Source: Geothrix sp. | GTDB lineage: Bacteria; Acidobacteriota; Holophagae; Holophagales; Holophagaceae | Assembly (NCBI RefSeq): GCF_030219325.1 | Contig: NZ_CP126625.1 | Span: forward strand, 3,212,857-3,276,856 | Reading direction: 5' to 3' | DNA length: 64,000 bases | Made by a program: the position numbers and the translations under genes | Shown: positions 1 to 30,492 of the stretch, piece after piece | How positions within the stretch are numbered: position 1 is the first letter of the stretch | Layout of the letters: each line of letters opens with the position of its first letter | The notes under the pieces: model-generated | Database searches by the model: none | What the model saw: the letters and a program-made list of their open reading frames with translations, nothing else | Told to the model about the DNA's origin: nothing

Positions 1-779
1 GCGGGAGCGTAGACCCGCAGGGACATCCGCGTGTGGGTGGCATCCAGGGGGATCTTCCCTACGGACTGGTTCGCGCCGGTGGAGACGGTGGTACCGGCCC
101 AGGTCTCGGCCGTGGCGGACCGGTTGACCTTGCCCACCTTGTTGGAACCCCCGGCCGGATCGGTCACCACGGTGGAGTCCTCGGCGCCACCGAAGCCCGT
201 CAGGGTGTAGGTCAGGGCGGCGTCATCGAAGGTGATGGCACTGAACCCCGTGGCACCACCGCCACCGCCCGTCCCGCCAATGAACGCCACATCATCGAAG
301 TAGTAGGTCTTGGCGCCGGCCGTGGCTCCGCTCACGCCGAAGTTGAAGAAGATGGTCGCCTTGTCGTAGCTGCTGGCCACGTTCAGGGCAGTGGTTCCCG
401 TCGCCTGGTGGGCAAAGTCAAAGGTCAGGGTCTCCCAGGTGTTGGACACCGTGGTCACGGCCTCGGTCTCCACCGAAGTGGCGGGGGTGGTGTGGTCCTC
501 GACCTTGAGCCGGACGGGAATGCCTGCATTGGGGGAATAGACCCGCACGGTCATCCGGGTGTTGGCCGCATCGAAGGGGATCTTCGCAGCGAAGCCAAGG
601 GTGCCATCGGCCGTCAGGGTGGTGCCGGCCCAGGTCTCGGCCGTGGCAGACTTGACGACCTTGGCCACCTGGTTGGTGCCGCCTGCGGGATCCAGGACGA
701 TGCTGGAGTCGTCGGCGCCCCCAAACCCGAGCAGGCCGTAGTTCACGGTGGCCGAGTCGAACGTGACCGGCAGGCTCAT
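1..779 (-). repeat. Tandem protein-domain repeat inside the lipoprotein gene
   Basis: Two in-frame copies of a module of about 165 codons: copy A lies at about 779-292 and copy B at about 240 down to the window edge. Shared signatures include GFGGA(D/E)DS, DPAGG(T/S)N and SATAETWAGTT. A glycine-rich linker (GGTGGGGGATG) separates them. The divergence between copies suggests an old duplication. Confidence 0.7.
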
Positions 780-1217
780 CTGGGTCAGCACCACCGGGCG
801 GGTATCGAAAGCCTGGGTGACACTGGCGCCGCTGGTGTTGGCTACGCCGGCGGCGCTGTGGAACGCGCCCGCAGCCACGCTGACGGTCAGGGTCCCGACC
901 GAATTAGCGGGGGGAGTGACCACCAGGGTGTACTGGTTGGCCGAGACTTTGGTCGTGCTGGCAGCCCCCGTGCCGCTGGTGACCGTCACGGCCGAGGCCG
1001 GGAAGCTGCTCACGGGTTGGCTGAAGGTGAACATGAAAGTCACGGGGCCTTTGGCTGCGGTGCCGCTGGTCCCCCCGATGACCACGGCCGGCGCCGGGTT
1101 GTAGGTCTGGACGGGGGCGGGGTGAGTGGCCTTGCCGCCGCAGCTGGTCAGCAGGATCAACGGGGCTGCCAGGAGCGCCAGCGGAACCAGGAATCCTCGC
1201 AGTCGACGGCGTGTCAT
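1..1217 (-). CDS. Lipoprotein with Ig-like and tandem CBM-like domains (3' end cut by window)
   Basis: The reading frame opens at an ATG at 1217 preceded by GAGGAG and runs off the window start, so the C-terminus is missing. The N-terminus is a lipoprotein signal: basic start MTRRRLRG, hydrophobic stretch, lipobox LTSC with the modified Cys at residue 26. Residues about 35-140 resemble a bacterial Ig-like domain, rich in Thr/Val and containing TFTFSQPVSSFP. Then come two related blocks of about 165 residues, each starting with (V/I)TFD and containing LxGFGGA(D/E)DS, DPAGG and SATAETWAGTT; they look like beta-sandwich carbohydrate-binding modules. Divergent from the XylR-like regulator and next to beta-glucanase genes, so I infer a surface glucan-binding protein or glucanase. 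A catalytic domain could lie beyond the window; none is visible. Confidence 0.75.
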   Translation of the reverse strand, partial: MTRRRLRGFLVPLALLAAPLILLTSCGGKATHPAPVQTYNPAPAVVIGGTSGTAAKGPVTFMFTFSQPVSSFPASAVTVTSGTGAASTTKVSANQYTLVVTPPANSVGTLTVSVAAGAFHSAAGVANTSGASVTQAFDTRPVVLTQMSLPVTFDSATVNYGLLGFGGADDSSIVLDPAGGTNQVAKVVKSATAETWAGTTLTADGTLGFAAKIPFDAANTRMTVRVYSPNAGIPVRLKVEDHTTPATSVETEAVTTVSNTWETLTFDFAHQATGTTALNVASSYDKATIFFNFGVSGATAGAKTYYFDDVAFIGGTGGGGGATGFSAITFDDAALTYTLTGFGGAEDSTVVTDPAGGSNKVGKVNRSATAETWAGTTVSTGANQSVGKIPLDATHTRMSLRVYAP

Positions 1218-1618
1218 GGGGTCTCCTCGGATGGGTCATGGCTCATGGGCCGATGGGTGCAATCAGATGGGTGCGGGACTTGGTTCCGGCGAGCAGGCGC
1301 CGTGCGGACACTGGGCTGATGGAGGGCTGGTCAAGGTTGGGTTCTGGAAAGTGGGTTGTATATGATCTTTTTTCGTAATCTAGAATGAATTTTCAGCGCC
1401 CGCCCCTATTGTGCCTGCCCAGCTTCGAACCCTTTGCGCGTTCCCGAATCAATGGCTCAAATTCATGGATTATCTATTTTTTATCAATCAAGACCGGTGC
1501 CCTGGGCCCCCGCCCAACCCTGCCAGCCTGGGCCCCACAGAGGGCTGGTCACCCGCCAGGCTGGGGCGGTCCGACCTCCCCGATTGCCAAAAATCTAGAC
1601 AGGCTGCAATCTCTTTTC
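1218..1618. promoter_or_regulatory. Divergent intergenic region between lipoprotein and regulator
   Basis: About 400 bases without a supported gene. Most is GC-rich, but two AT-rich patches stand out, around 1357-1395 and 1455-1490, unlike the surrounding sequence. They are the likely places for divergent promoters and operator sites of the XylR-like regulator. I see no convincing -35/-10 pair. The frame of the regulator stays open back to 1385, but that part has no family resemblance. Confidence 0.4.
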
Positions 1619-2797
1619 ATGCCCAAGAACCGCCACATCGCCCTCCTGGTCCCCGCCTCTGGGGGCTACAGCCGCGGCGTCTGCCAGGGTGTGGCCACCT
1701 ATGCCCTTGAGCACGATGACTGGCTGATCTTCCCCTACGAGCGGGCCGAGGTTACCAAGCTGCCGGCCTGGCTCAAGAAGGGCCACATCGACGGGCTCAT
1801 CGGTTTCATCTCAACGCCCGAGCTGGGCCGCCAGATCTCCTCCCTGGGCGTCCCAGTGGTGGACGTGCAGGGAGAGGGTAACTGCCCCGCCTCCCCAGTG
1901 ATCGACACCGATGCCGAAGCGGTGGCCCAGCTGGCGGCGGACTTCTTCCTCCAGGCTGGCTTCAACAACTTCGCCTTCGGGGGCTATCCCGGCATCTTCT
2001 TCTCGGACCGGCGGTCAGCCGCCCTGGTGAGGATTCTCGAGGCCCAGGGCCGGCAGGTGCACTGCTACGCACCCCCTGAGAAGGTGGCGGCGACCATCAA
2101 GATGCAGTTCCAGGAGCTGCGTGGCCTGGAATACGAGGCGGCCCTGGCCGCCTGGCTCTCGAAGCTCCCGAAGCCCGTGGCCATCCTCGCCTGCAACGAC
2201 ATCCGCGGCCAGCAGATCATCACCGCCTGCCGGGACCTGGGCATCTCCATGCCCTCGGATGTCTCCGTGATCGGCGTGGACAACGACGAGATCCTCTGTC
2301 GCCTCTGTCGCCCCACACTCACCAGCATCGCACCCAACATCGAGGGCATCGGCCAGATGGCCGCTGACATGCTGAACCGCATGCTGGACGGCGAGCCCGT
2401 CCCGCCGATCCTGCACCGCGTGGCCCCCTTGCGCATCGTCGAGCGGCAGTCCACGGACATCACCACGGCCCAGGATCCCCTGGTCCTGGCGGCATCTCGC
2501 CTCATCCGCGACCGGGCCTGCCACGGTATCTCGGTGGACCAGATCTGCGAGCTGGTGGACTGCTCCCGCTCCACCCTGGACAACCTGTTCAAGAAGCACC
2601 TGGGCCGGCCCGTGGCCCAGGAGATGCTCCGCATCCGGCTGAACCGCGGCATGCGCCTACTGGAGGACTCCAGCCTCGCCATCGAGGAGGTGGCCAGGGA
2701 ATGCGGGTTCACCTCGGCCACCTACTTCTGCCGGTTCTTCAAGCGGGAGGCGGGCACCACTCCGGCCCTCTACCGGACGCAGTTTGCCCGGCGCTGA
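1619..2797 (+). CDS. XylR-like AraC-family transcriptional regulator with sugar-binding domain
   Basis: Product of 392 residues, the same length as E. coli XylR. Residues about 5-270 form a LacI/periplasmic-binding-protein-type sugar sensor (starts MPKNRHIALLVP; contains ACNDIRGQQI and VIGVDNDEILC). Residues about 285-390 are an AraC helix-turn-helix pair, including IEEVARECGFTSATYFCRFF. The ATG at 1619 was chosen because the open frame upstream (from 1385) is proline-rich and unlike the family; no clear ribosome-binding site precedes it. It sits between the lipoprotein (divergent) and the GH81 gene (convergent), so it probably controls the beta-glucan locus in response to a sugar. The real ligand is unknown. 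Confidence 0.88.
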   Translation: MPKNRHIALLVPASGGYSRGVCQGVATYALEHDDWLIFPYERAEVTKLPAWLKKGHIDGLIGFISTPELGRQISSLGVPVVDVQGEGNCPASPVIDTDAEAVAQLAADFFLQAGFNNFAFGGYPGIFFSDRRSAALVRILEAQGRQVHCYAPPEKVAATIKMQFQELRGLEYEAALAAWLSKLPKPVAILACNDIRGQQIITACRDLGISMPSDVSVIGVDNDEILCRLCRPTLTSIAPNIEGIGQMAADMLNRMLDGEPVPPILHRVAPLRIVERQSTDITTAQDPLVLAASRLIRDRACHGISVDQICELVDCSRSTLDNLFKKHLGRPVAQEMLRIRLNRGMRLLEDSSLAIEEVARECGFTSATYFCRFFKREAGTTPALYRTQFARR

Positions 2798-2815
2798 AGC
2801 TTTGCATCCTGCGGC

Positions 2816-5107
2816 TCACGGCACCCCGGCAGGTGGGGCAGCCGTGGTCTCCGCCAGGCTTCGCGGGGGAACTGGGAGCTGCGTGCCATCGCTGAACCGC
2901 ACCGGGAGGGGCGCACTTCCCGCATTGAAGGCCAGGTAGGTCCGCCGGCCGTCGGGTTTCCGGAACACGGCGTAGAGGGCCGTATCCGCAGTGACCGAGA
3001 CATCCGGCAGCCCCATGCGCTCCAGGTTCAGCAGCCAGTGCAGCGTGTGGGACCGGGTGTTGCCGAGTTCCACGGCGCCCCACCGGTTCCACTGGGCCAG
3101 CGCGGCGGGGGGATCGGCCAGGGCCAGGTACTCGGCAAAGACATCCTGCCAGATGTCGGGCGGGTCGGGGCGCCGGCCGCGGGTGGCCCAGGCGGCACTC
3201 TGGGCCGGCAGCTCCGCCAGGCTGCGCTTCACGAAGCCCGGGTCCTTGCCCAGGTAAAGTGAGGCTGTCGTCAGGGGCAGCAGGTTGATGCCCTTGATCT
3301 GCCTTGGCTCGTCCGTCCACCAGGTGTTGTGAGCGAACTTGCCGCCGAAGAGCATGCTCACCTCGCTGTTCCGGTACTCGGGTGGCAGTACCTGGCGGTC
3401 CAGGTCGAACCAGTAGGTCTGGATTCCCTTGATCTCGCTTGAATACAGCCAGATGCCGAGGTCCCGCAGGGCCCGGTCGCCGGTGACCTCCGCCCAGAGG
3501 ATCAGGCCCGCCCAGGCGTTCACCGCCTCACTGGAGCTCTCCTGGTTGTTGCCGAAGGGGCCGAGGCCGACGCCCGAGGCCCAGGAGTGGCTCTCATAGG
3601 GGTCAAAGTTCCGCAGGAAGGGAAATTCCGAGCCCCCGCGGGTGGGCGTGGCGATGTCGGCCACGAGCTTGTCCACCAGCCCGCCCCACCTGTCCTTGGC
3701 GGCCCAGGCGGGGTCGCGCAGCGCGATCTGGGCCATGGCGAAGATCCAGTAGCCGTAGTGGAAGTGGTGGTCGTTGACCTGCTCGACGCTGAAGTACTCC
3801 TCGGGATAGGCGACCAGGGTCCCGAGTGTCCGGGTATAGCGGAAGTAGGTCTTCCGGTCCGTGCCCGAGAACCACTGCTCGACCCGGCCCTTCAGCAGCT
3901 TGAGCAGCGCGTCGCGCGCCTCGAGGTCACCTTGCTGCTCCGCGACATTCATCAGCTGGATGATGCGCTGCAGGCCCTTGCCCTGCCAGTAGGGACCGTT
4001 GCCGATCTCCAGCATCATAGGCCGGGCCCGGCGCACATCAGCCTTGAGGAGGTCGGCCAGCTCGGCCGCCCGGGGGGTGCCCTTCACGCCGGGCCACCAG
4101 GGCAGCAGCCCCGGATAGGCCACCCGGGTGGTGAAGCCCGCGGCTGGGAGCACCAGGATGCGGCCCCGGAGGGTGTCATAGCCCGGCCCCAGCTGGCCCT
4201 GGATGGCGGCATTCCCGGACCACTGGTGGGGGTAGAGCCCCAGGAGCGGCCTGGCCTCCGCCCCCTCCACGGCCAGCACGGTTGCCTCGAAGCGTGTCTC
4301 GACGGTGCTCGTGGCGGCGTCGTAGTGCCAGGAAACCCGCGTGTCCTCGAGGAACGCGTAGGCATGGCGGGTGAAGAGGGCAAGGGTTTCCGGCCGCTCA
4401 TCGGGCAGGGCCGCCGCGGAGAAGTGCTCCCGGCCGGTAGGCATGCGCGCCAGCCACTGCCGGTCGGAAACCTGCTCCCAGCGCACCCCCGTGGGACCGA
4501 AGAACGCGTACACCTTCCCCTTGACCCGCAGGGCCAGGACCCGCGGATCCTCCTGGGAGGGCAGGCGGACCCCGACCTCGGGCAGGCCGACCTGCACATC
4601 CCCCCGCGAGACCCGCAGGTAGGCGTAGGGACTGCCGTGGGCGATGGTGGCCTCCATCCGGTCTTCGCCCCTGGAGAAGTCGATGCCGATGGACCAGTCG
4701 CCGGCCTTGCCCAAGCGCGCCGGTCCGGGCACGAAGGCCACCGGGCTGATGAGGACCGGATCCGCATGCGGGTAGTGGATCTCCGTGTCCTTGCGCTCAG
4801 TGGCGACCACGGTCTTCACGGGCAGGGACATCTCCAAGCCCGCGGCGACAGCCCTGAAGGTGAGGGGCTGAGCGAAGATGGCCTCCGGCGTCCGGTTGAA
4901 GATGAGGGTGGAATACCACTGGCTCGTCTGGGCCGCGGTCTTCAGCAGCGCCTCCGTCCTCATGGGGGCGGGCGGCACGTCCTTGTCGCTGCCCAGGGCG
5001 TCCAGCCGGTAGGCGCCGGCCCCGACCTTGACCGTCTGGGATGCTCCCGTGACCGTCAGCAGCAACCCGAAGAGCCCCAGCCGCAAGAACCTCCAGGTCG
5101 AGTTCAT
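2816..5107 (-). CDS. GH81 endo-beta-1,3-glucanase, secreted
   Basis: Predicted to hydrolyse internal beta-1,3 bonds of laminarin-type glucan outside the cytoplasm. Product 763 residues, opening with a signal peptide (MNSTWRFLRLGLFGLLL). GH81 hallmarks: YSTLIFNRTPEAIFAQPLTF near residues 65-85, NDHHFHYGYWIFA near 444, and the catalytic region NNQESSSEAVNAW near 518-530, where the Glu residues belong. The start at 5107 has AAGGAG seven bases upstream; an in-frame ATG 26 codons earlier has no such site. It is transcribed divergently from the porin and GH17-like genes, which fits a shared regulatory region. A short Pro-rich C-terminus shows no extra module. Family assignment is firm; exact substrate is inferred. 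Confidence 0.88.
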   Translation of the reverse strand: MNSTWRFLRLGLFGLLLTVTGASQTVKVGAGAYRLDALGSDKDVPPAPMRTEALLKTAAQTSQWYSTLIFNRTPEAIFAQPLTFRAVAAGLEMSLPVKTVVATERKDTEIHYPHADPVLISPVAFVPGPARLGKAGDWSIGIDFSRGEDRMEATIAHGSPYAYLRVSRGDVQVGLPEVGVRLPSQEDPRVLALRVKGKVYAFFGPTGVRWEQVSDRQWLARMPTGREHFSAAALPDERPETLALFTRHAYAFLEDTRVSWHYDAATSTVETRFEATVLAVEGAEARPLLGLYPHQWSGNAAIQGQLGPGYDTLRGRILVLPAAGFTTRVAYPGLLPWWPGVKGTPRAAELADLLKADVRRARPMMLEIGNGPYWQGKGLQRIIQLMNVAEQQGDLEARDALLKLLKGRVEQWFSGTDRKTYFRYTRTLGTLVAYPEEYFSVEQVNDHHFHYGYWIFAMAQIALRDPAWAAKDRWGGLVDKLVADIATPTRGGSEFPFLRNFDPYESHSWASGVGLGPFGNNQESSSEAVNAWAGLILWAEVTGDRALRDLGIWLYSSEIKGIQTYWFDLDRQVLPPEYRNSEVSMLFGGKFAHNTWWTDEPRQIKGINLLPLTTASLYLGKDPGFVKRSLAELPAQSAAWATRGRRPDPPDIWQDVFAEYLALADPPAALAQWNRWGAVELGNTRSHTLHWLLNLERMGLPDVSVTADTALYAVFRKPDGRRTYLAFNAGSAPLPVRFSDGTQLPVPPRSLAETTAAPPAGVP

Positions 5108-5397
5108 GGAAACTCCTTGGTAATTTTGATCATTGCATGAAGTTTTTTGTGTTTCGGTCGAGCATCGTATACCCAAAATACTCAATCACCCAAGGGATAA
5201 AGCGCGATGAAAAATCGACCATAAAAATGAAAAAAGACAATTTACTTCCCCTATTTTTGAATCACCCTTGATCAGCTTCTGCACCATCCATCCTCGATAC
5301 TCGCGAACCAGCGGGGGGCGCTGTACGGGTTTGATGGCCCCCCTGCACCCTCCATCCCGCCCCTCTCCATCACCGGACCTTTCTGAGAAGGCTCCCC
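5108..5397. promoter_or_regulatory. AT-rich divergent promoter region of GH81 and porin genes
   Basis: A 290-base intergenic region that is strikingly AT-rich from about 5110 to 5275. It contains an interrupted dyad: GGTCGA at 5156-5161 followed by CATCG, mirrored by CGATG at 5205-5209 and TCGACC at 5215-5220, a candidate operator between the two transcription units. It must hold promoters in both directions. Exact -35/-10 boxes could not be fixed. Confidence 0.45.
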
Positions 5398-6771
5398 ATG
5401 CACACGCCAACCCTGCGGACCGTCACGGAACGCGACCAGCCCCCCCTCCCCCGCTTGAGCCCGAGCCGCCTGGGCACCTGGGCCGTCCTCCTGCTCGTGG
5501 GCTGCTGGGGCGGGCCGGTGGCCCGGGCCCAGCAGGCCCTCCAATACGGACCCTTCAGCCTGAACGCGTTTGCCAAGTACGAGGGCGCCCGCACCAGCAA
5601 CTTCAACGAAAACCTCCAGCTCTACCCGGAGGCGACCAAGCAACAGCAGTGGGCCGACCAGCTGGTGCCGGGCACCCGCTACGGCACCGAGCCCACCAAC
5701 GTCTGGCTCTTCCAGCCCTGGCTGGGCGTCAAGTTCGACCTGGGCGGCGGGTTCAAGGCCTCCGCCATGCTGAGCCAGCGCTGGCGGGGCGGCATGGGGG
5801 TGCCAAGCACGGTCGACGTCCCCGGCTTCCTCTATGAAGAGAATGTGGCGATCAGCCACGAGGACTACGGTCGGCTGGCCGTGGGCAAGATGGTCGCCCG
5901 GGGCTGGAGCGTGGCGGACTACCCCTACGGCACGGCCGTGGGACTGGCCAATGAGTGGGCTCAGAGCGGCGCCGGTTACGGCCTGCTCACCAAGGCCATC
6001 CGCTACACGTCCCGCCCCTTCGACATCTTCAACGGCGATCTCGTGCTGGAGGCGACCTACGACCAGGGCAACACCGCCTTCAAGATCCACAAGCCCCGGT
6101 TCTGGGAGTTCTATGGGCAGTACCACAATGCCGGTCTGGTGGTGGATGTCATCGTCCAGGACACCCGGAACGGGAATCCCCAGGCCTGGGGCCACGGCCC
6201 CTTCACGGGGCTAACGCCCTTCCCCCAAGACGATGCCAAGATCGGCGGCGCAGGCCAGGGCATGGCCATGGTGATGGCCCGGTACGACCTCGACGCGCAC
6301 TGGCAGGTGTCCGGCGGCCTCCGGTCGAACCGCTGGAGCGGCGCCGACGCGGTGATCACCGTGGCCGGCCCCCCCGCCCAGTGGAACGACATGTTCAACG
6401 TGGACTGGGGCGGCACCCGGGACGGAGTCGCCAACCCCGGCTACTCCGCCACCTCCACGGACGGCTTTGCGGCCCTGCGGTACCGACGGGAGAAGTGGTC
6501 CGCCTGGCTCGCCGGCCAGATCCTGGGCACCGCCTCCACCTCCAACCCCTCCGAGCGGGGCCAGAGCAACTGGGCCAACTTCAACACCCTGGGGTTCCAG
6601 TACGAGTTCGGACGCGGTCTCTCGGCCTATGCCGGCGTCGGCATGGTCCGCTATGGCCGCCTGGGCCTCTCTCCGATGTCCATGCCCACGAATTCCGCCT
6701 TCACCGGGGTCGATTCCCGGGTCAGCAGGAGCGGCAACTGGGCGCTGTTCGGCCTCCTCTACGTCCTCTGA
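5398..6771 (+). CDS. Outer-membrane beta-barrel (porin-like) protein of the glucan locus
   Basis: Product of 457 residues. The N-terminus is a long signal sequence with a hydrophobic core (TWAVLLLVGCWG) and a likely cleavage after ARAQ near residue 45. The rest is alternating hydrophobic/polar sequence rich in Gly, Tyr, Trp and Asn (YGPFSLNAFAKYEGARTSNF; FQYEFGRGLSAYAGVGMVRY), typical of outer-membrane barrels, and it ends in a strand-like segment (GNWALFGLLYVL). The start has GAGAAGG upstream. It precedes the GH17-like gene by 19 bases, so the two are co-transcribed. I infer a channel for gluco-oligosaccharides released by the glucanases; no specific porin family was recognised. Confidence 0.7.
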   Translation: MHTPTLRTVTERDQPPLPRLSPSRLGTWAVLLLVGCWGGPVARAQQALQYGPFSLNAFAKYEGARTSNFNENLQLYPEATKQQQWADQLVPGTRYGTEPTNVWLFQPWLGVKFDLGGGFKASAMLSQRWRGGMGVPSTVDVPGFLYEENVAISHEDYGRLAVGKMVARGWSVADYPYGTAVGLANEWAQSGAGYGLLTKAIRYTSRPFDIFNGDLVLEATYDQGNTAFKIHKPRFWEFYGQYHNAGLVVDVIVQDTRNGNPQAWGHGPFTGLTPFPQDDAKIGGAGQGMAMVMARYDLDAHWQVSGGLRSNRWSGADAVITVAGPPAQWNDMFNVDWGGTRDGVANPGYSATSTDGFAALRYRREKWSAWLAGQILGTASTSNPSERGQSNWANFNTLGFQYEFGRGLSAYAGVGMVRYGRLGLSPMSMPTNSAFTGVDSRVSRSGNWALFGLLYVL

Positions 6772-6790
6772 GTCCAAAGGAACCCCAGCC

Positions 6791-8524
6791 ATGTCGAACA
6801 ACCTCCTCACCGTGGTCCTCCGTTCGTTCCTTGGACTCGCCCTCGTCGCCGCCCTCACCTCCTGCGGCGGCGGCGGGGTGGTGCCCGGCACCGTCGATGC
6901 CAAGTCCATCCGGCCCCTGCCCACGGAGTACCTCACCCGCACGGCCGTCGCCTACTCGCCCTACCGGACCGGCAACAACTCGACCGAGACGCCCACGGCC
7001 ACGCAGATCGCCCAGGACCTGACGCTCCTTGCCCAGGGGAACTTCACCCTGATCCGGCTGTTCGACAGCTCCGACAAGGTGGCCAAGCAGACCCTGCAGG
7101 TCATCCAGAACAACCACCTGGACATCAAGGTGCACCTGGGCTGCTGGATCTCCAGCACCAAGTACACCGCGCCCGCCGATGTGCCTGCCATCGAGAACGC
7201 CAACCAGACGGAAATCGCCCGCTGCATCGCGCTGGCGAACGCCTACCCCGACCAGGTGCTCGTGGTGAGCGTCGGCAACGAGTGCATGGTCAGCTGGGCG
7301 GGCAACCCGGTCTCCCCGGCCCAGATGGCCTCCTACATCACCCAGGTGCGGTCGGCCATCGCCCAGCCGGTTACCAGCGACGACAACTACGCCTTCTTCG
7401 CTTCTGCGCCGACCTACCTGCTCAACACCCTCGACTTCGTCTCCATTCATTCCTACGCCCTGCTGGACACCCTGTACGGGCAGCCGTGGGATTGGAAGCA
7501 GACGGACGTTCCCGCCTCGGGCCGGGCTGCCGCGATGATGGGTGCCGCGCTCGCCTTCGAGCAGCAGAACTACAGCGAGGCCCGCACCTACCTGGACAAG
7601 ACCGGCTACGCCGCGCTGCCCATCGTCATCGGCGAGACCGGCTGGAAGGCCTTGCCGACGGGGGGCGAATACGAGCGGGCCCACCCGGTCAACCAGCAGA
7701 TCTTCTTCAACCTCCTGGCCGCCTGGCGCATCTCCGGCACGGGCCCCAAGAACATCTTCTGGTTCGAGGCCTTCGATGAGCCCTGGAAGGGTGGTGACGA
7801 CGGCTGGGGCCTCTTCAATGTCAACCGCCAGGCCCGCTACGTCGTGCGCGGCCTCTACCCCGCCTCCGTCTGGGAGCCCGGCACCTACAGCGGCGCGGAT
7901 GCCCTGCACTACCTCCCCACGGTGCAGAATCCCGCGGTGACCGCCGGGAGGTACACCCTCTATGCGGAAGGCGCCACCTCCGGAGAGGCCCTGCCCGCGG
8001 CGCCCCTGGCCTGGGCCGGCTGGACCTGGAACACCTCGGCGGTGCCCACCACCACCACCGCCGCGGAGGGCACCACCAGCCTGCAGATCACGCCGGGCCC
8101 CCAGCCCTGGGGCTGGGGTGCGGCCCTGGCCTACACCAAGCATGCGGATGATCTGAGCGCCTTTGCTTCTTCCGGGTACCTGAACTTCAGCATCAAGACC
8201 ACCTACCCGGGCACCATCCTCGTCGGCTTCCAGACCGGCAACCCCATCGACCTCACCCTCTACAACGTCTTCCTCCCGCTGGCATCGGGCAGCTACGGCT
8301 ACCTCAACGACGGCGCGTGGCATGACGTGAAGATCCCCATCAGCGCCCTCACGCCGTGGGGTGTCATGGGCTCAGGGATGCCCCTGGCGTCGCTGTCGAA
8401 GCTCGACATGACCATGGTCTCCAATCCCTTCGTGGTCGCGGACGTCTTCAGCAGCACGGGCAAGCCCGCCAACAGCAATCCCACGAATCCCATCTACGTC
8501 GACCGCATCTTCTGGTCGAAGTGA
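6791..8524 (+). CDS. GH17-like beta-glucanase lipoprotein
   Basis: Product of 577 residues. Lipoprotein signal with lipobox ALTSC (Cys25). Residues about 45-365 form a GH17-type TIM barrel: LIRLFDSSDK near the first strands, acid/base Glu in VVSVGNE (about residue 163), FVSIHSYALLD, and nucleophile Glu in VIGETGWKALP (about residue 282). Residues about 385-577 look like a beta-sandwich binding module (GYLNFSIKT; DGAWHDVKIPIS). GH17 enzymes act on beta-1,3- or mixed-linkage glucans, by hydrolysis or transglycosylation. Being lipidated, it is probably anchored to a membrane. ATG at 6791 follows AAAGGAA. It lies in the operon porin-GH17-mutarotase-symporter-phosphorylase. Confidence 0.82.
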   Translation: MSNNLLTVVLRSFLGLALVAALTSCGGGGVVPGTVDAKSIRPLPTEYLTRTAVAYSPYRTGNNSTETPTATQIAQDLTLLAQGNFTLIRLFDSSDKVAKQTLQVIQNNHLDIKVHLGCWISSTKYTAPADVPAIENANQTEIARCIALANAYPDQVLVVSVGNECMVSWAGNPVSPAQMASYITQVRSAIAQPVTSDDNYAFFASAPTYLLNTLDFVSIHSYALLDTLYGQPWDWKQTDVPASGRAAAMMGAALAFEQQNYSEARTYLDKTGYAALPIVIGETGWKALPTGGEYERAHPVNQQIFFNLLAAWRISGTGPKNIFWFEAFDEPWKGGDDGWGLFNVNRQARYVVRGLYPASVWEPGTYSGADALHYLPTVQNPAVTAGRYTLYAEGATSGEALPAAPLAWAGWTWNTSAVPTTTTAAEGTTSLQITPGPQPWGWGAALAYTKHADDLSAFASSGYLNFSIKTTYPGTILVGFQTGNPIDLTLYNVFLPLASGSYGYLNDGAWHDVKIPISALTPWGVMGSGMPLASLSKLDMTMVSNPFVVADVFSSTGKPANSNPTNPIYVDRIFWSK

Positions 8525-8578
8525 GGCCTGCATGCTGACGCAGGGGACGCCGGCGCCCCAGGACCCTGGGGTGCCTCG

Positions 8579-9511
8579 GTGACCCAGGGGGTAGTGACCA
8601 CCTCTCTCGAGCAGGGCTACCTGGTGAAGGGCCTCCGCACGGACGCGGCCGAGCTTCGGATGGTCCCGGAGCTCGGCGGACGGGTCATCAGCCTGCGCAG
8701 GCTCAGCTCCGGCCGGGAGTGGTGCTGGCACCAGCCCCACCCGGACTGGCTCTGGCGCAACGGGCCCGGGGATTCCTTCGGGGCCAGTCCCCAGGCGGGC
8801 ATCGACGAGTGCGTGCCGACCGTGGCGCCCTGCCGGGTCGGCGACCGGGACCTGCCCGACCATGGCGAAGTCTGGTTCCAGTGCTGGGAGCTGGAGCCCG
8901 AGGCCCTGGCCCGGCAGGAACTCTCGGCCACGGTGCGGCTGGCGGTCACACCCTTTCAGTTCCGCCGGTCCATCCGGGTCGGCACGGACGGTGCCTTCCT
9001 CTTCGATTACGCCCTGACCAACCTGGGCGACCGCCCCGAGCCATACCTCTGGTCCTTCCATCCCCTGCTGACCCTGGAATCGGGGGATCGCCTCGACCTT
9101 CCGGAGGAGGTCCGGAGCCTGCGTCTGAACGGGGGCCTTGGGGTGACCATCTCCCAGGGCGATGTGTGGGCCTACCCGGAACCGTTCCCCGGGGTGAGGC
9201 TCGATGCCGGCGAGCTTCCCGGAATGCCCGGCGCCTGCCTCAAGGGCTTCGCCGGCCCCCTGAAGACGGCCCGGGCGGGCATCGTGAACGGCCTGACCGG
9301 TGACCGCCTGGAGCTGGCATGGGATGGGTCCACGCTCCCCTTCCTCGGCGTGTGGATCAACCGCGGCCACGGCGGCTTCCACCACCTGGCCCTGGAACCC
9401 TGCAGCGGTGCACCGGATTCCCTCCTGGACGCCGTGGAGTCCTGGCGGCAGTACCGAGTCATCCCGCCGGGTGAGACGGTGCGGTGGTCCATCAGCGTCA
9501 GCCTGTCGTGA
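8579..9511 (+). CDS. Aldose 1-epimerase / galactose mutarotase-like protein
   Basis: Product of up to 310 residues with the galactose-mutarotase beta-sandwich pattern: MVPELGGRVISLRRL near the N-terminus, a His in DHGEVWFQCWEL (about residue 95) and a Glu in HHLALEPCSG (about residue 273) matching the acid/base pair expected of the superfamily. No signal peptide, so cytoplasmic. It may interconvert sugar anomers, which would help a beta-specific phosphorylase. The start is uncertain: GTG at 8579 gives the longest form, while GTG at 8594 has a G-rich stretch just upstream. It sits between the GH17-like gene and the symporter. Confidence 0.72.
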   Translation: MTQGVVTTSLEQGYLVKGLRTDAAELRMVPELGGRVISLRRLSSGREWCWHQPHPDWLWRNGPGDSFGASPQAGIDECVPTVAPCRVGDRDLPDHGEVWFQCWELEPEALARQELSATVRLAVTPFQFRRSIRVGTDGAFLFDYALTNLGDRPEPYLWSFHPLLTLESGDRLDLPEEVRSLRLNGGLGVTISQGDVWAYPEPFPGVRLDAGELPGMPGACLKGFAGPLKTARAGIVNGLTGDRLELAWDGSTLPFLGVWINRGHGGFHHLALEPCSGAPDSLLDAVESWRQYRVIPPGETVRWSISVSLS

Positions 9512-9524
9512 TGTGGGGGTTCCC

Positions 9525-11015
9525 GTGAACGCAGCCGAAGCCAATTCCACTCCTGCCACCGCCATGCTGGAAGACGGGCGCCTGTCCTTCGGAGAGAAGG
9601 TGGGCTACGCCCTGGGCGATGCCGCCTCCAACTTCTATTGGAAGACGTTTGAGTTCTTCATCATCTTCTTCTATACCGACGTGTTCGGCATCTCCGCCGG
9701 AGCCGTCGGCACCATGATGCTGGTGACCCGGGTCATGGACGCCGTGGCCGATCCGGTCATGGGAACCATCGCGGACCGCACCAAGACCCGCTGGGGGCAT
9801 TTCCGGCCTTACGTGCTCTGGTTCGCCATCCCGCTGGCCGGTGCGGGGGTGCTCACCTTCACGACCCCCAGCCTCGGCGGAGGGGCCAAGCTCCTCTACG
9901 CCTATGCGACCTACTGTCTCCTGATGCTCCTCTACACCGCGGTGAACATCCCCTACAGCGCCCTGCTCGGCGTCATGACGCCCAACTCGAAGGAGCGCAC
10001 CTCCCTGGCCTCCTTCCGGTTCGTCGGGGCCTTTTCCGTGGCGGTCCTGGTGCAGTACTGCACGCCCAGCCTGGCCCAGTGGTTCGGGATGTCATCGGCC
10101 CTGCGTGCCCAGCACAGCTTCCTGGCCCACCCCATCGACTGGGTGCGCTGGTTCCTCTCCCGGGACTTCCTCACCCTGCCCTCCGACCCGGCCAAGGGGT
10201 GGCAGATGACCATGGTCCTGTACGGCGCCTTCGCAGTCGTCCTCCTGATCCTCTGCTTCGCCACCACCCACGAGCGGGTCACTCCGCCCGAGGACCAGAG
10301 CCCGGACTTCAAGGAGGACCTGAAGAGCATGCTCACGAGCCGCGCCTTCGTGGTGATGCTCGGGGTCCTGATCATCATGATCATGTCCTTCGTGCTCAGG
10401 GGCTCGGTCTCGGCCTACTACTTCAAGTACTACGTCCAGCGCAACGACCTCCTCGGCCCCTTCCTGGTGGCCAACGCCCTGGCCTTCCTGGCGGCGGTGG
10501 TCATCACGCCCACCATCGCCCGGCACTTTGACAAGAAGACCCTGTTCATCGCCGCCATCGGCATCGGCGGCCTCATCATCGGCGGCTTCTGGCTGGCCAA
10601 GCCCACGGACATCGGGCTCATGTTCGGCCTGCAGATCCTCGCCAGCTTCATCATCGGGTTCAACTCGCCCCTGGTCTGGGCCATGTTCGCGGACACCGCC
10701 GACGACGCCGAGTGGCGCCTGGGGCGCCGGAACACGGGGCTGGTCTTCGCTTCGGCCGTTTTCGGCATGAAGATCGGGCTGGCCCTGGGTGCCTGGGTGA
10801 CGGGGCTCCTGCTGACCGGCTTCGGTTACCTCGCCAACCAGGAGCAGTCGGCCACCTCGCTGCTGGGCATCCGGCTCTCCATGAGCCTGATCCCCGCCCT
10901 GATGCTGGTGGTGGCTGCCGTCCTCATGAGGGCCTACCCCCTCGATGACCAGAAGATGGTCCAGATTGAGAAGGACCTGGCCAGCCGCAAGAAGGGGCTC
11001 GAAGGCGAGGCCTGA
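9525..11015 (+). CDS. GPH-family sugar:cation symporter (MFS superfamily)
   Basis: Product of 496 residues with about 12 hydrophobic segments. The signature DAVADPVMGTIADRTKTRWG after the second segment identifies the glycoside-pentoside-hexuronide:cation symporter family. GTG at 9525 was chosen because it has GGGGG seven bases upstream and gives a normal family length; ATG at 9564 is an alternative. Given its neighbours, it probably imports gluco-oligosaccharides (laminari-type) across the inner membrane. Its stop overlaps the start of the phosphorylase gene (TGATG), suggesting translational coupling of import and phosphorolysis. Confidence 0.87.
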   Translation: MNAAEANSTPATAMLEDGRLSFGEKVGYALGDAASNFYWKTFEFFIIFFYTDVFGISAGAVGTMMLVTRVMDAVADPVMGTIADRTKTRWGHFRPYVLWFAIPLAGAGVLTFTTPSLGGGAKLLYAYATYCLLMLLYTAVNIPYSALLGVMTPNSKERTSLASFRFVGAFSVAVLVQYCTPSLAQWFGMSSALRAQHSFLAHPIDWVRWFLSRDFLTLPSDPAKGWQMTMVLYGAFAVVLLILCFATTHERVTPPEDQSPDFKEDLKSMLTSRAFVVMLGVLIIMIMSFVLRGSVSAYYFKYYVQRNDLLGPFLVANALAFLAAVVITPTIARHFDKKTLFIAAIGIGGLIIGGFWLAKPTDIGLMFGLQILASFIIGFNSPLVWAMFADTADDAEWRLGRRNTGLVFASAVFGMKIGLALGAWVTGLLLTGFGYLANQEQSATSLLGIRLSMSLIPALMLVVAAVLMRAYPLDDQKMVQIEKDLASRKKGLEGEA

Positions 11016-14000
11016 TGGATCCACGGAGAGATGAGCGTATGCCAGCCACCCATGCAGCAGATGCAACCCTGAAGCACCCCGGCTCGCCGGCCGAGGGCTC
11101 CATCGTGGAATTCGAAGGCGAATCCTATTACCGCATCACCAACCACGACGCGATGGCGCCCTTCTTCATGAGTCTGGTGAGCGACTCGGACCACTGGCTC
11201 TTCATCTCGAGCAATGGCGCCCTCACGGCCGGGCGGAAGGATGCGGAGCACGCGCTCTTCCCCTACTACACCGACGACCGGATCCATGACAGCCAGGATC
11301 AGACCGGCAGCCTGACCCTCTTCCGCATCACGCGCCGGGAGCGGACCTTTCTCTGGGAACCCTTCAGCCAGCGGCTTGAGGGGCTGTACCAGGTCACCCG
11401 CAGCCTGTACAAAAGCGTCCATGGCAACAAGATCCTGTTCGAAGAGGCCAACCACGACCTGGGCCTCACCTTCCGCTATGCGTGGATGAACAGCGAGCGC
11501 TTCGGGTTCGTCCGACGGGCGATGCTCACCAACCAGGGGGACGACGAGGTCCATGTCCTGCTCGTCGATGGCATCCAGAACGTCCTGCCTGCGGGGGTCG
11601 AGCGGCGCTTCCAGGTGGAGTTCAGCACCCTCGTCGACGGGTACAAGCGCACGGAGCTGATCAGGCCCTCGGGCCTCGCCCTCTTCCGCCTCAGCTCGGT
11701 ACCCGTGGACAAGCCCGAGCCGAGCGAGGCCCTGCGGGTCAACCTGGCCTGGTCCACCGGGCTGGAGCCTGCCCAGCGCCTGCTCTCCACCACTCAGCTC
11801 AAGGCCTTCCGGCTGGGGGCGACGCTTCGCGAGGAAAGCGACATCCGTGGGCAGCGTGGCGCCTACCTCCTGCACGGTGGCTTTCCCCTGGGCGGAGGCG
11901 AACAGAAGGACTGGCTCGTCGTGGCGGAGCTCAACCAGGACGCCACGGCGGTCGTCGCCCTGAAGCATCGCCTGGAGTCCGAATCCAGCCTGAAGGCTGA
12001 GGTCCTGAGTGATGTCGCCAGAGGCACCCGGAACCTGCTGCGGATCGTGGCCTGTTCCGACGGACTCCAGCTGACGGGCGACCCGTTGAACGCCCAGCGG
12101 CATTTCTCGAACACCCTGTTCAACCTCTTGCGGGGCGGCGTTCCCGACGATGGCTACCGGATCTCCCGCAGCGACCTGGCGTCCTTCCTGGCCCAATCGA
12201 ACAAGACGGTGGCCCGGCGGCATGCGCTGTTCCTGGAGCAGCTCCCGGACCACCTGCAGCACCGTGACCTGATCGACCGGGTGACCGCCCTGGGCGATCT
12301 GGACCTCGAGCGGCTCACCAAGGAGTACCTGCCCCTCACCTTCAGCCGCCGACACGGGGATCCCAGCCGGCCCTGGAACAGCTTCTCCATCGAGGTGAAG
12401 GACGAGTGGGGCGAGAAGATCCTCAACTACGAGGGCAACTGGCGGGACATCTTCCAGAACTGGGAGGCCCTGGGCCATTCCTTTCCCGGTTTTCTGGAGA
12501 GCATGATCTTCAAGTTCGCCGACTGCTCGACGGTGGATGGCCACAACCCCTACCGCCTCATGCGGATCGGCTTCGACTGGGAAGTGAGCGATCCCCAGGA
12601 TCCCTGGTCCTTCATCGGCTACTGGGGCGATCACCAGGTGATCTACCTGCTCAAGCTGCTGGAGGCCTCTCGACGCTTCGACCCAGGCCTGCTGACGGGC
12701 CTGCTGGACCGACCGATCTTCACCTATGCCAATGTCCCCTACCGCATCAAGCCCTACCAGGACATGCTCGCCAACCCTCACGACACCATCGCCTTCGACG
12801 CGGCGGCTCACGAGGAGGCGATGGCACGGGCGAAGGCCCTGGGAGCGGATGGCCTCGCCGTGCTGGGCGCCCAGGGGACGGTCCTCCGGGCCAGCCTGGC
12901 CGAGAAGCTCCTGCTGGTAGCCCTCTCCAAGCTGGCGAATTACGTCCCGGAGGCCGGGATCTGGATGAACACCCAGCGACCCGAGTGGAACGACGCCAAC
13001 AACGCCCTGGTGGGCTACGGCGTGTCCATGGTGACCCTCTACTACCTTCGCCGGTACCTGGCCTTCTGCCGGGAGCTCCTGCCGGAAGCGCCCGGGGGAT
13101 GGCTCGAGCTGGCGGAGGAGCTCCACAGATTCCTGGAGGACGTGGATCGCGCCCTCGCCGGGCATCCACCGACGCCCGGCCAGGCCATCTCCAACTGTGA
13201 GCGGAAACAGGTCCTGGATGCACTGGGGCAGGCCGGCACGGTCTATCGGACCGAGATCTATGACCGGGGGTTCTCGGGATCCAGGGTCCAGGTGCCCGTG
13301 GAGCGCCTCCTCGGCTTCCTGAATGGGGCGCTGGAGCACATCGACCACGCCATCCGGCTGAACCTGCGGCCCGACGGCCTCTACCATTCGTACCACGTGA
13401 TGAAAGTCGTCGGGGACGGGATCGAGATCCGCCCGCTCTACGAGATGCTGGAAGGCCAGGTGGCCGTGCTCAGCTCCGGCGTCCTGTCGGGAGAGGCGTC
13501 CGTGGCCGTGCTGGATGCCCTGCGGTCGAGCCAGCTCTACCGGACCGACCAGGCCAGCTACCTCCTCTACCCGGACCGTCCCCTGCCCCACTTCCTGGAC
13601 AAGAACATTCTCCCGGCCCAGGCCGTCGCCTGTTCGCCGCTGCTGACAACGCTCCTGGCCGATGGGAATGAGCGTCTCGTGACCCGGGATGTCGAGGGCC
13701 AAGTCCACTTCAATGCCGACTTCAGGAATGTCTCGCACCTTCGGGAGGCACTGGACAGGCTGAAGCATGGTCCCTACCGGAGCATGGCGGAAACCGAGGA
13801 AGCCCAGCTGCTGGCCCTCTATGAGCAGGTCTTCGACCACCAGTCCTTCACAGGACGCTCTGGAACCTTCTACAAGTACGAAGGCCTGGGTTGTATCTAC
13901 TGGCACATGGTGTCGAAGCTGCTCCTGGCCGTCGACGAGACGAGGCAGCGCACCTGCGATGAGTCCCAGGCCGTCGGGGACCGTCTCAGCGCGCACTACC

Positions 14001-14497
14001 GGGCCATCCGCGAGGGGCTGGGAAGCCACAAGCCGCCCTCCCTGCATGGGGCGATTCCCATCGACCCCTACTCGCACACAACCGGGTTCGCCGGCGCCCA
14101 GCAGCCCGGCATGACAGGTCAGGTCAAGGAGGACATCCTCAGCCGCCTGGGCGAGATGGGAGTTCAAGTCTCGCAGGGGCGCATCGCCTTCCTGCCCTGG
14201 CTCATACGTGACGGAGAGTTCCTGAGCCAACGTGCCAGATTCGCCTTCCTGGACGTGGAAGGTCACCCTGAACACCTGGACCTTGAGCCAGGAACGTTTG
14301 CCTTCACGCTCTGCCAGGTTCCGGTCGTGATCCACCGGTCTGGGTCCCCTGGCATCCAGGTCCTCCGCCAGGCAGGTTCCGTGGATGTTGTGGAGGGACT
14401 GCGGCTGGACACTGATGCCAGCAAGGCCATCTTCAGTCGCAGCGGTGAGGTCAGGCGGCTGGAGGTCTGCCTGGGCCGCTCCAACCCTGGCTCCTGA
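11015..14497 (+). CDS. GH94-clan glycoside phosphorylase, probably GH149/GH161-type beta-1,3-glucan phosphorylase
   Basis: Product of 1160 residues, much longer than classical GH94 cellobiose phosphorylases (about 800) but close to GH149 and GH161 beta-1,3-glucan phosphorylases. The candidate catalytic Asp lies in RPEWNDANNALVGYG (about residue 660), matching the WNDA motif of the GH94 clan. Near residue 1018, YSHTTGFAGAQQPGMTGQ may form the phosphate/substrate site. There is no signal peptide, so it is cytoplasmic. Predicted reaction: beta-1,3-glucan(n) + phosphate to glucan(n-1) + glucose-1-phosphate. The start is either ATG 11015, overlapping the symporter stop, or ATG 11039 (eight codons later), which has GGAGAG before it. 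The exact GH family is inferred from length, motifs and neighbours. Confidence 0.72.
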   Translation: MDPRRDERMPATHAADATLKHPGSPAEGSIVEFEGESYYRITNHDAMAPFFMSLVSDSDHWLFISSNGALTAGRKDAEHALFPYYTDDRIHDSQDQTGSLTLFRITRRERTFLWEPFSQRLEGLYQVTRSLYKSVHGNKILFEEANHDLGLTFRYAWMNSERFGFVRRAMLTNQGDDEVHVLLVDGIQNVLPAGVERRFQVEFSTLVDGYKRTELIRPSGLALFRLSSVPVDKPEPSEALRVNLAWSTGLEPAQRLLSTTQLKAFRLGATLREESDIRGQRGAYLLHGGFPLGGGEQKDWLVVAELNQDATAVVALKHRLESESSLKAEVLSDVARGTRNLLRIVACSDGLQLTGDPLNAQRHFSNTLFNLLRGGVPDDGYRISRSDLASFLAQSNKTVARRHALFLEQLPDHLQHRDLIDRVTALGDLDLERLTKEYLPLTFSRRHGDPSRPWNSFSIEVKDEWGEKILNYEGNWRDIFQNWEALGHSFPGFLESMIFKFADCSTVDGHNPYRLMRIGFDWEVSDPQDPWSFIGYWGDHQVIYLLKLLEASRRFDPGLLTGLLDRPIFTYANVPYRIKPYQDMLANPHDTIAFDAAAHEEAMARAKALGADGLAVLGAQGTVLRASLAEKLLLVALSKLANYVPEAGIWMNTQRPEWNDANNALVGYGVSMVTLYYLRRYLAFCRELLPEAPGGWLELAEELHRFLEDVDRALAGHPPTPGQAISNCERKQVLDALGQAGTVYRTEIYDRGFSGSRVQVPVERLLGFLNGALEHIDHAIRLNLRPDGLYHSYHVMKVVGDGIEIRPLYEMLEGQVAVLSSGVLSGEASVAVLDALRSSQLYRTDQASYLLYPDRPLPHFLDKNILPAQAVACSPLLTTLLADGNERLVTRDVEGQVHFNADFRNVSHLREALDRLKHGPYRSMAETEEAQLLALYEQVFDHQSFTGRSGTFYKYEGLGCIYWHMVSKLLLAVDETRQRTCDESQAVGDRLSAHYRAIREGLGSHKPPSLHGAIPIDPYSHTTGFAGAQQPGMTGQVKEDILSRLGEMGVQVSQGRIAFLPWLIRDGEFLSQRARFAFLDVEGHPEHLDLEPGTFAFTLCQVPVVIHRSGSPGIQVLRQAGSVDVVEGLRLDTDASKAIFSRSGEVRRLEVCLGRSNPGS

Positions 14498-14761
14498 GCC
14501 AGAACAAACTTGTACAGGACGCACAAATCGTGAGAAGACGCGGTTCAGACATCGTGATCCGCTGCGATTCCCCGATGGGCTTGTCCTGACCCATGGCAAG
14601 CAGGGGACGAGTGATCCGGTGGATTGCGATCGGGAGGGGAGGACGCGCCCGAGTGGGATTCGTGAGTGGCACCACCAGCCGAGCCACAGCTCCAGAGGTA
14701 GGGGCGGTCCATGCTTCCGTTCCCGGTCATAATCTGGTCCACAGTACAGGAAGGAGTCGTC
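14498..14761. promoter_or_regulatory. Intergenic region before the molybdenum hydroxylase genes
   Basis: 264 bases without a supported gene. CATAAT at 14728-14733 is a possible -10 box 28 bases before the next start, but no good -35 is seen. Two loosely similar stretches (GTGATCCG followed by GCGAT) occur around 14553 and 14619. No terminator-like hairpin with a T-run follows the phosphorylase gene. Confidence 0.25.
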
Positions 14762-15235
14762 ATGGCCAGGACCCTTTCGTTCACGCTGAATGGCAAGCAG
14801 GTGGTCACAACCGCCGACGGCTCGCGCATGCTGGCCTGTGTGCTGCGCGAGGACCTGGCCCTCACTGGCACCAAGATCGGCTGCGGGCAGGGTCTCTGCG
14901 GCGCCTGCACGGTGCTCGTCGACGGGGAGGCCGTGCGCTCCTGCTCCACGCCGCTGGCCGCCGTGGCGGGCAAGGCGGTGCTCACCATCGAAGGCCTGGG
15001 CCTGCAGGAGAAGCTCCACCCCGTGCAGGAGGCCTTCCTGGATCACCACGCCTTCCAGTGCGGCTTCTGCACCCCGGGCATGATCCTCAGCGCCTACGCG
15101 CTGCTGAAGAAGACACCCAGACCGGATCGCCGTCAGGTGGCCGAGGCCCTGGATGGCAACCTCTGCCGCTGCGGCGCCCACGTGCGGATCCTGGCCGCGG
15201 TCGAAGCCGCCGCCCAGAAGGGAGGTGCCAAATGA
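14762..15235 (+). CDS. (2Fe-2S) small subunit of a xanthine dehydrogenase-family hydroxylase (IorA-like)
   Basis: Product of 157 residues carrying both iron-sulfur clusters of molybdenum hydroxylases: a plant-ferredoxin-type site CGQGLCGACTVLVDGEAVRSC, written here as Cys-x4-Cys-x2-Cys-x11-Cys near residues 40-61, and a C-terminal helical site with FQCGFCTPGM and GNLCRCGAH. It passes electrons from the molybdenum site to an acceptor. The ATG at 14762 follows GGAAGGAG, a strong site; an earlier in-frame ATG at 14711 is poorer. The gene ends with an ATGA overlap into a 25-codon ORF, then the large subunit. As in isoquinoline 1-oxidoreductase-type enzymes, no FAD subunit gene is next to it. Confidence 0.9.
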   Translation: MARTLSFTLNGKQVVTTADGSRMLACVLREDLALTGTKIGCGQGLCGACTVLVDGEAVRSCSTPLAAVAGKAVLTIEGLGLQEKLHPVQEAFLDHHAFQCGFCTPGMILSAYALLKKTPRPDRRQVAEALDGNLCRCGAHVRILAAVEAAAQKGGAK

Positions 15236-15309
15236 GGCCGGAGCAGGAGCGGAGGGCCACGGGCCGAAGGCCCGCCCCGCAGGGGTTTGGCGTAGGAGGT
15301 GCCAAATGA
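15221..15309 (+). repeat. Direct repeat GGAGGTGCCAAATGA flanking a two-hairpin insert
   Basis: The 15-base sequence GGAGGTGCCAAATGA occurs at 15221-15235 and again, identically, at 15295-15309. Each copy supplies a ribosome-binding site and an ATGA stop/start. Between them lie a perfect hairpin, CGGGCC-GAA-GGCCCG at 15260-15274, and a smaller one, CCCC-GCA-GGGG at 15275-15285. The layout resembles a small palindromic (REP-like) element that duplicated the intercistronic junction. Confidence 0.75.
15232..15309 (+). CDS. 25-residue micro-ORF wedged between hydroxylase subunits
   Basis: ATG at 15232 overlaps the small-subunit stop (ATGA) and TGA at 15307-15309 overlaps the large-subunit ATG at 15306 (ATGA again). 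GGAGG lies six bases before its start. The predicted peptide starts MRPEQERRATGRR, is Arg/Gly/Pro-rich and ends GGAK, the same as the small-subunit tail, because the junction is duplicated. It has no recognisable domain or membrane segment. It may be translated simply to keep coupling across an inserted palindrome rather than to make a functional peptide. Confidence 0.5.
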   Translation: MRPEQERRATGRRPAPQGFGVGGAK

Positions 15310-30319: not shown

Positions 30320-30492
30320 GGCCATCCTCCACGGGATCAGCGAGGGCCCATTCTGCGCCGCACCGGGTGCGGTGGCAATCGAGCTGGCCGCGGGTTTGCC
30401 GGACAGGTCCATCCTCAATGCACGAGGTTCGGGATCGCCAGATCCACTGAATCCGTGAGTCCGGGAACACGCTTCACACCCTAGAATGGTCC

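Follow-up and report, generated by a model that had tools for sequence, protein, structure and literature searches.

A GH149 phosphorylase locus for putative beta-1,3-glucan utilisation, with a porin-like gene and a candidate operator, in Geothrix (Acidobacteriota)

The beta-1,3-glucan locus of the Geothrix genome studied here is genuine and includes a GH149 phosphorylase; a first, sequence-only reading of the same DNA had guessed it correctly. The window that we analysed is a stretch of 64,000 nucleotides, bases 3212857-3276856 of this acidobacterial genome, which is 3.73 Mb in size and consists of a single contig. We posit, at a probability of about 0.85, that the locus serves the utilisation of a beta-1,3-glucan (laminarin, callose, curdlan-like or fungal glucan), which would end in phosphorolysis by the GH149 enzyme. 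All genes named in the sequence-only reading were found in their places, the porin and the mutarotase with weaker identities than the rest, and the gene set is more than chance, since it is syntenic in further Geothrix genomes. Gene identities (porin and mutarotase excepted), the active-site motifs of GH149, this synteny and a shared 16-bp motif can be read from the sequence itself. GH149 phosphorolytic systems are already known as a kind; new here are the variant with a porin and GH81, the split into two architectures within one genus, and the candidate operator.

The phosphorylase is encoded at 11015-14497 (+ strand), with a start codon that shares one base with the stop codon of the symporter gene. 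The protein of 1160 residues matched the NCBIfam equivalog NF058639 with 1579.8 bits (cut-off 1150) over residues 26-1153, and the solved GH149 enzyme Pro_7066 (PDB 6hq6) with 1218 bits over residues 29-1154. In the Pro_7066 structure, the WND motif is formed by W651/N652/D653, the RD motif by R470/D471, and the histidine is H959 (PMC6771811). According to offsets from the alignment to 6hq6, all of these are present in the Geothrix protein, namely the catalytic WND motif as W658/N659/D660, the RD sugar-phosphate motif as R477/D478, and the phosphate-site histidine as H964. Membership in GH94 or GH161 was rejected, as GH161 and cellobiose-phosphorylase chains scored about 82 bits versus 1218 for the GH149 structure. 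What had been described as a GH94-clan enzyme, to be placed among GH94, GH149 and GH161, falls in GH149, a family with beta-1,3-glucan phosphorylases, the activity of the two enzymes characterised in its founding paper (PMC5827456). On sequence grounds, we identify the gene product as a GH149 beta-1,3-glucan phosphorylase. The beta-1,3-glucan substrate that had been proposed from the GH81 gene is consistent with this family and with the neighbouring GH81, GH17 and binding genes.

Upstream of the phosphorylase, the locus encodes a set of predicted surface and secreted proteins. GH81 (2816-5107, - strand) is a putative secreted endo-beta-1,3-glucanase with a signal peptide read in the sequence, matching PF17652 (179.7 bits) and PDB 6fop (559 bits) as well as BH0236 chains, with nearly full-length alignments and the motifs NDHHFHYGY and NNQESSSEA. 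A GH17 lipoprotein with a C-terminal binding-type domain (6791-8524, + strand) matched PF00332 with 31.1 bits (cut-off 28.2) and, as nearest PDB chain, the GH17 structure 6fcg with 108 bits; its lipobox LTSCGGGG and the GH17 motifs VGNE and GETGW were read in the sequence. At the left edge of the window lies the N-terminal part of a further lipoprotein with glucan-binding-type repeats (1-1217, - strand). In the genome, the full gene (L002:13161-16217, minus strand) encodes 1018 residues with the lipobox LTSC and five repeats of about 165-175 residues each, as read in the translation, and the full protein matched CBM_35_2 (33.8 bits, cut-off 23) and CBM_4_9 (26.6 bits, cut-off 25.9). No tandem DNA repeats were found in the gene, so the five repeats have diverged.

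Reading the genome beyond the window showed that the locus extends past the left window edge. There, on the same strand as the lipoprotein gene and following it, lie a conserved ORF of 84 aa with no assigned function (L002:12854-13108, - strand, beginning MTKKLRTVRQVMELSIQHH) and then two GH17 genes without signal peptide. In G023, too, a small ORF resembling the 84-aa one comes after the lipoprotein gene (L090:6401-6730). With starts refined by sequence reading (regulator 1619, GH81 5107 leftward, GH17 6791), the lipoprotein and the two GH17 genes run leftward and the porin, GH17, mutarotase, GPH and GH149 genes run rightward, forming two operon-like arms directed outwards with the regulator and GH81 between them. 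Directly after GH149 lie two-subunit molybdenum hydroxylase-like (xanthine dehydrogenase-like) genes (14711-17408, + strand), which had no tblastn match in the related loci compared.

The rightward arm begins with a gene for a porin-like outer-membrane beta-barrel of 457 aa (5398-6771, + strand). It had no Pfam match and no PDB sequence match. An AF2 model from an alignment of four sequences, with a pLDDT of 39, was built of strands, and its best Foldseek matches were outer-membrane porins, the chitoporin VhChiP first (E 9e-6), at a TM-score of about 0.34 on the query for a model of this low confidence. The model suggests that the protein is likely an outer-membrane porin of a family absent from Pfam. 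For the mutarotase-like protein without signal peptide (8579-9511, + strand), DUF4432 matched below the cut-off, a weak PDB profile match was obtained to 3q1n, a 'galactose mutarotase related enzyme' (E 0.0047), and the fold search with a four-sequence model (pLDDT 41) gave noise only; its assignment as a mutarotase is weak. The GPH-family sugar:cation symporter (9513-11015, + strand, exact start codon uncertain) matched TIGR00792 with 388.9 bits (cut-off 231.35) and PF13347 with 324.9 bits. No TonB-dependent receptor was found among the ORFs of the locus or as far as the flanking unrelated genes, and neither gene of a susC/susD-like pair was found in the locus. A TonB-receptor-like gene further to the left, at L002:2-2845, was considered and rejected as a member because unrelated genes stand between. 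As the genome contains many TonB-receptor-like genes elsewhere, uptake could also use an unlinked receptor.

Substrate, cellular locations, transport path and regulation are what we infer from these genes. The repeat lipoprotein would bind the glucan at the cell surface, where the secreted GH81 and the GH17 lipoprotein may cut it into short laminari-oligosaccharides. Because the locus lacks a TonB-dependent receptor, we propose that these cross the outer membrane via the porin-like protein, and the GPH symporter would then move them into the cytoplasm. Here, the two signal-less GH17 enzymes encoded left of the window would probably trim or transglycosylate the oligosaccharides, and GH149 would phosphorolyse them unit by unit into alpha-glucose-1-phosphate and a final glucose. 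Phosphoglucomutase and glucokinase may pass the products to glycolysis, and one ATP would be saved per unit released as glucose-1-phosphate. The genome encodes two phosphoglucomutase-type (PGM_PMM_I) genes and one glucokinase, with no match to ROK. It contains no GH1 and a single GH3, which at 339 aa has the length of NagZ. Lacking GH1 and a full-size GH3, the organism may use phosphorolysis as the main route for short beta-1,3-glucans.

Glycogen genes had been suggested as users of the product. They are indeed present, beginning about 10 kb downstream of the locus (debranching enzyme 24860, GlgB 30493, phosphorylase 32431, GlgA 37366, GlgC 38805). Going by gene order, we rejected them as members of the locus, as unrelated genes lie between, namely xanthine-dehydrogenase-like, murB-like and ftsQ/A/Z-like genes, named from their translations. 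A lone phage-tail-sheath gene (Phage_sheath_1, Phage_sheath_1C) lies between the debranching enzyme and GlgB (29123-30502, - strand), with no other recognised phage genes beside it. The glycogen genes are a possible unlinked sink for the product. One might instead suppose that the phosphorylase works synthetically in the cell, using glucose-1-phosphate to build up beta-1,3-glucan as a store or capsule, given that GH149 reactions are reversible in vitro (PMC5827456) and that glycogen metabolism is encoded about 10 kb from GH149. We regard this as highly improbable, as the GH149 gene overlaps that of an uptake-type symporter and has genes for a sugar-sensor-type regulator and for secreted endo-glucanases as neighbours, and unrelated genes separate the locus from those for glycogen. 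Degradation of an imported glucan by phosphorolysis is the reading that we keep.

The sequence-only reading had also taken a cytoplasmic phosphorylase to be an uncommon end point of such systems. This is wrong, because a scan of genome contigs yielded at least 588 confirmed GH149-encoding relatives, and because Kuhaudomlarp et al. (2018, PMC5827456) had already reported GH149 gene clusters that include PF13347 transporters and cytoplasmic GH17. We compared 89 GH149 loci by tblastn (E 1e-8), with the proteins of this genus as queries; since only matches to these proteins are counted and some loci are short, all neighbour counts are lower bounds. Near GH149, we found at least 65 loci with GPH-type symporters, 51 with GH16, 47 with GH30 and 21 with the lipoprotein repeat, as well as GH17 genes in many. 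GH81 was matched in only two of these outside loci, again a lower bound. These two, a Prolixibacteraceae MAG (L074:19569 onward) and an Acidobacteria gp1 MAG (L009:13875 onward), combine GH149 and GPH with a GH81 relative of about 32% identity and are the only other GH81 matches among the 89.

Among known systems, the type II GH149 clusters of Alteromonadales (PMC5827456) share with our locus GH149, an inner-membrane MFS (PF13347) transporter, a cytoplasmic GH17 and other glucanases. They differ in having a TonB-dependent receptor, an extracellular GH16 and a histidine kinase/response regulator, whereas our locus encodes GH81 and a porin-like protein, together with a XylR-like regulator. Of the type II features, the PF13347 transporter and a signal-less GH17 are present, and the TonB-dependent receptor is missing from the locus. 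Laminarin PULs of marine Bacteroidota (Formosa, PMC6246565; Muricauda, PMC13188888) resemble it in GH149 and laminarin-type glucanases, and many of the Bacteroidota loci compared here also share GPH-type symporters, GH17 genes and the same binding repeat. These PULs, however, encode GH16, in many cases GH30 or GH3 as well, and TonB-dependent receptors paired with SusD-like proteins (Formosa); the locus of the window contains none of these. The GH161/GH94 clusters (PMC6484121) likewise rely on cytoplasmic phosphorolysis of beta-1,3-oligosaccharides by GH149-related enzymes, but these belong to other families and are mostly combined with ABC transporters.

Within Geothrix, GH149 matches were found in 11 of 47 genomes, in one case only as two contig fragments. 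The porin gene was present in six of the 47, all of them among these 11; if the two genes were independent, this would occur by chance with a probability of 462/10,737,573 = 4e-5 (calculated by hand and ignoring kinship). Across the phylum, 15 of 396 sampled genomes had a GH149 match and two had the porin gene. All genomes with the porin gene, in the genus as in the phylum sample, belong to an architecture that we call type A, characterised by GH81, the porin-like gene and the GH17 lipoprotein and represented by the window, G014, G016, G023, G421 and G424. The order lipoprotein, regulator, GH81, porin, GH17, mutarotase, GPH, GH149 is kept in G014 and G016 and, with small changes, in G023. G421 and G424 have a rearranged type A, in which a GH30 gene adjoins those for the porin and GH17.

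Type B comprises the Geothrix loci G013, G011, SG200 and G269 and, from a sister genus, G132 and G408. Instead of the porin and GH81, type B loci encode two small barrel-type proteins and a TonB-type receptor of 1141 aa, which contains a CarboxypepD_reg and a TonB plug domain, and the locus of G013 additionally carries GH16 and GH30. The remainder is similar to the window, with GPH symporters 74-80% and GH149 proteins 58-62% identical, and the four Geothrix B-type loci, whose symporters are 75-80% identical, also share its regulator (72-77% identical) and its motif. In a quick tree, the GH149 proteins of Holophagaceae formed one well-supported set, which includes one sequence from a MAG labelled Demequina. 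A clean split of this tree by porin and receptor was not seen, each label needing two changes. The simplest reading of these sequences is that a surface module has been exchanged around a shared core. GH149 relatives of 57-58% identity also occur in MAGs labelled Brockarchaeota and Demequina (L010, L011), with no other matching gene nearby, and reflect either transfer or mis-binning.

The distribution of GH30 raises the question of the natural substrate, which might be a glucan with branches or mixed linkages, as in the fungal wall or in chrysolaminarin, whose beta-1,3 runs form a partial diet, unlinked enzymes doing the debranching. In a laminarin locus described earlier, a GH30 is implicated in taking off beta-1,6 branches (PMC6484121), and GH30 stands beside the porin and GH17 genes in G421 and G424 and together with GH16 in the B-type locus of G013. 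The locus in the window has neither GH30 nor GH16, though, and its GH81 and GH149 both indicate beta-1,3 runs. We consider a branched main substrate rather unlikely and retain a beta-1,3-glucan as the substrate of the locus.

Within Geothrix, both architectures may be under common control. The XylR-like regulator (1619-2797, + strand) combines a periplasmic-binding-protein-like sensor (PF13377, Peripla_BP_3, 120.5 bits) with an AraC-type DNA-binding domain (PF12833, 68 bits); the XylR N-terminal model PF22177 matched under the cut-off (E 2.6e-4). In Geothrix loci of either architecture, its orthologues are 72-85% identical. A side-by-side comparison of promoters from several genomes revealed a 16-bp element, AAAAAAGAYCATWTAC, of which the 64 kb window contains only two sites at up to two mismatches, both in divergent promoters of the locus (chance expectation 0.00 from shuffles). 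The first, AAAAAAGATCATATAC (1358-1373, - strand), is an exact match between the divergent lipoprotein and regulator genes, upstream of the former, and the second, AAAAAAGACAATTTAC (5230-5245, + strand), has one mismatch and lies between the divergent GH81 and porin-like genes, upstream of the latter. Since these promoters served to define the pattern, finding it in them is by construction; the informative points are that the rest of the 64 kb lacks it and that it is conserved between genomes. The element recurs in every Geothrix locus read, of types A and B, and, overlapping copies of the same loci aside, no site at up to one mismatch was found in about 1.8 Mb of other loci.

We regard the element as a candidate operator, through which the XylR-like regulator, probably sensing an imported sugar, would activate both outward operons. 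Alternatively, it could belong to the core promoters of the two operons rather than being a binding site of the regulator, since it nearly always points toward the lipoprotein or porin genes, is separated in the window from the starts of these genes by about 140-155 bp, and is followed downstream by further conserved bases. A core promoter element fits less well with its absence from the remainder of the 64 kb, and in the sister-genus loci G132 and G408 the regulator match and the motif (at up to two mismatches) are missing together, although these stretches may end too early. We lean towards the operator and hold the promoter explanation to be less likely.

Taken with the two architectures, this leads us to suggest, tentatively and at slightly less than even odds, a TonB-independent system in which the locus-restricted porin and the surface enzymes GH81 and GH17 replace the TonB-type receptor of the relatives under the same regulator and operator, with phosphorolysis as the main route for short beta-1,3-glucans.

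Geothrix is known mainly as an iron reducer. In those parts of the literature on Geothrix and laminarin, Acidobacteria and GH149, laminarin with porin and GH81, and Geothrix and glycoside hydrolases that were accessible to our searches, no such locus is described, and our analysis would place GH149 phosphorolysis in Geothrix, for which the same sources hold no report. The matched loci of a single genus, with a porin-like protein in one and a TonB-type receptor in the other, would allow a direct comparison of two outer-membrane routes, and the shared 16-bp element offers a concrete target for the question of the regulator.
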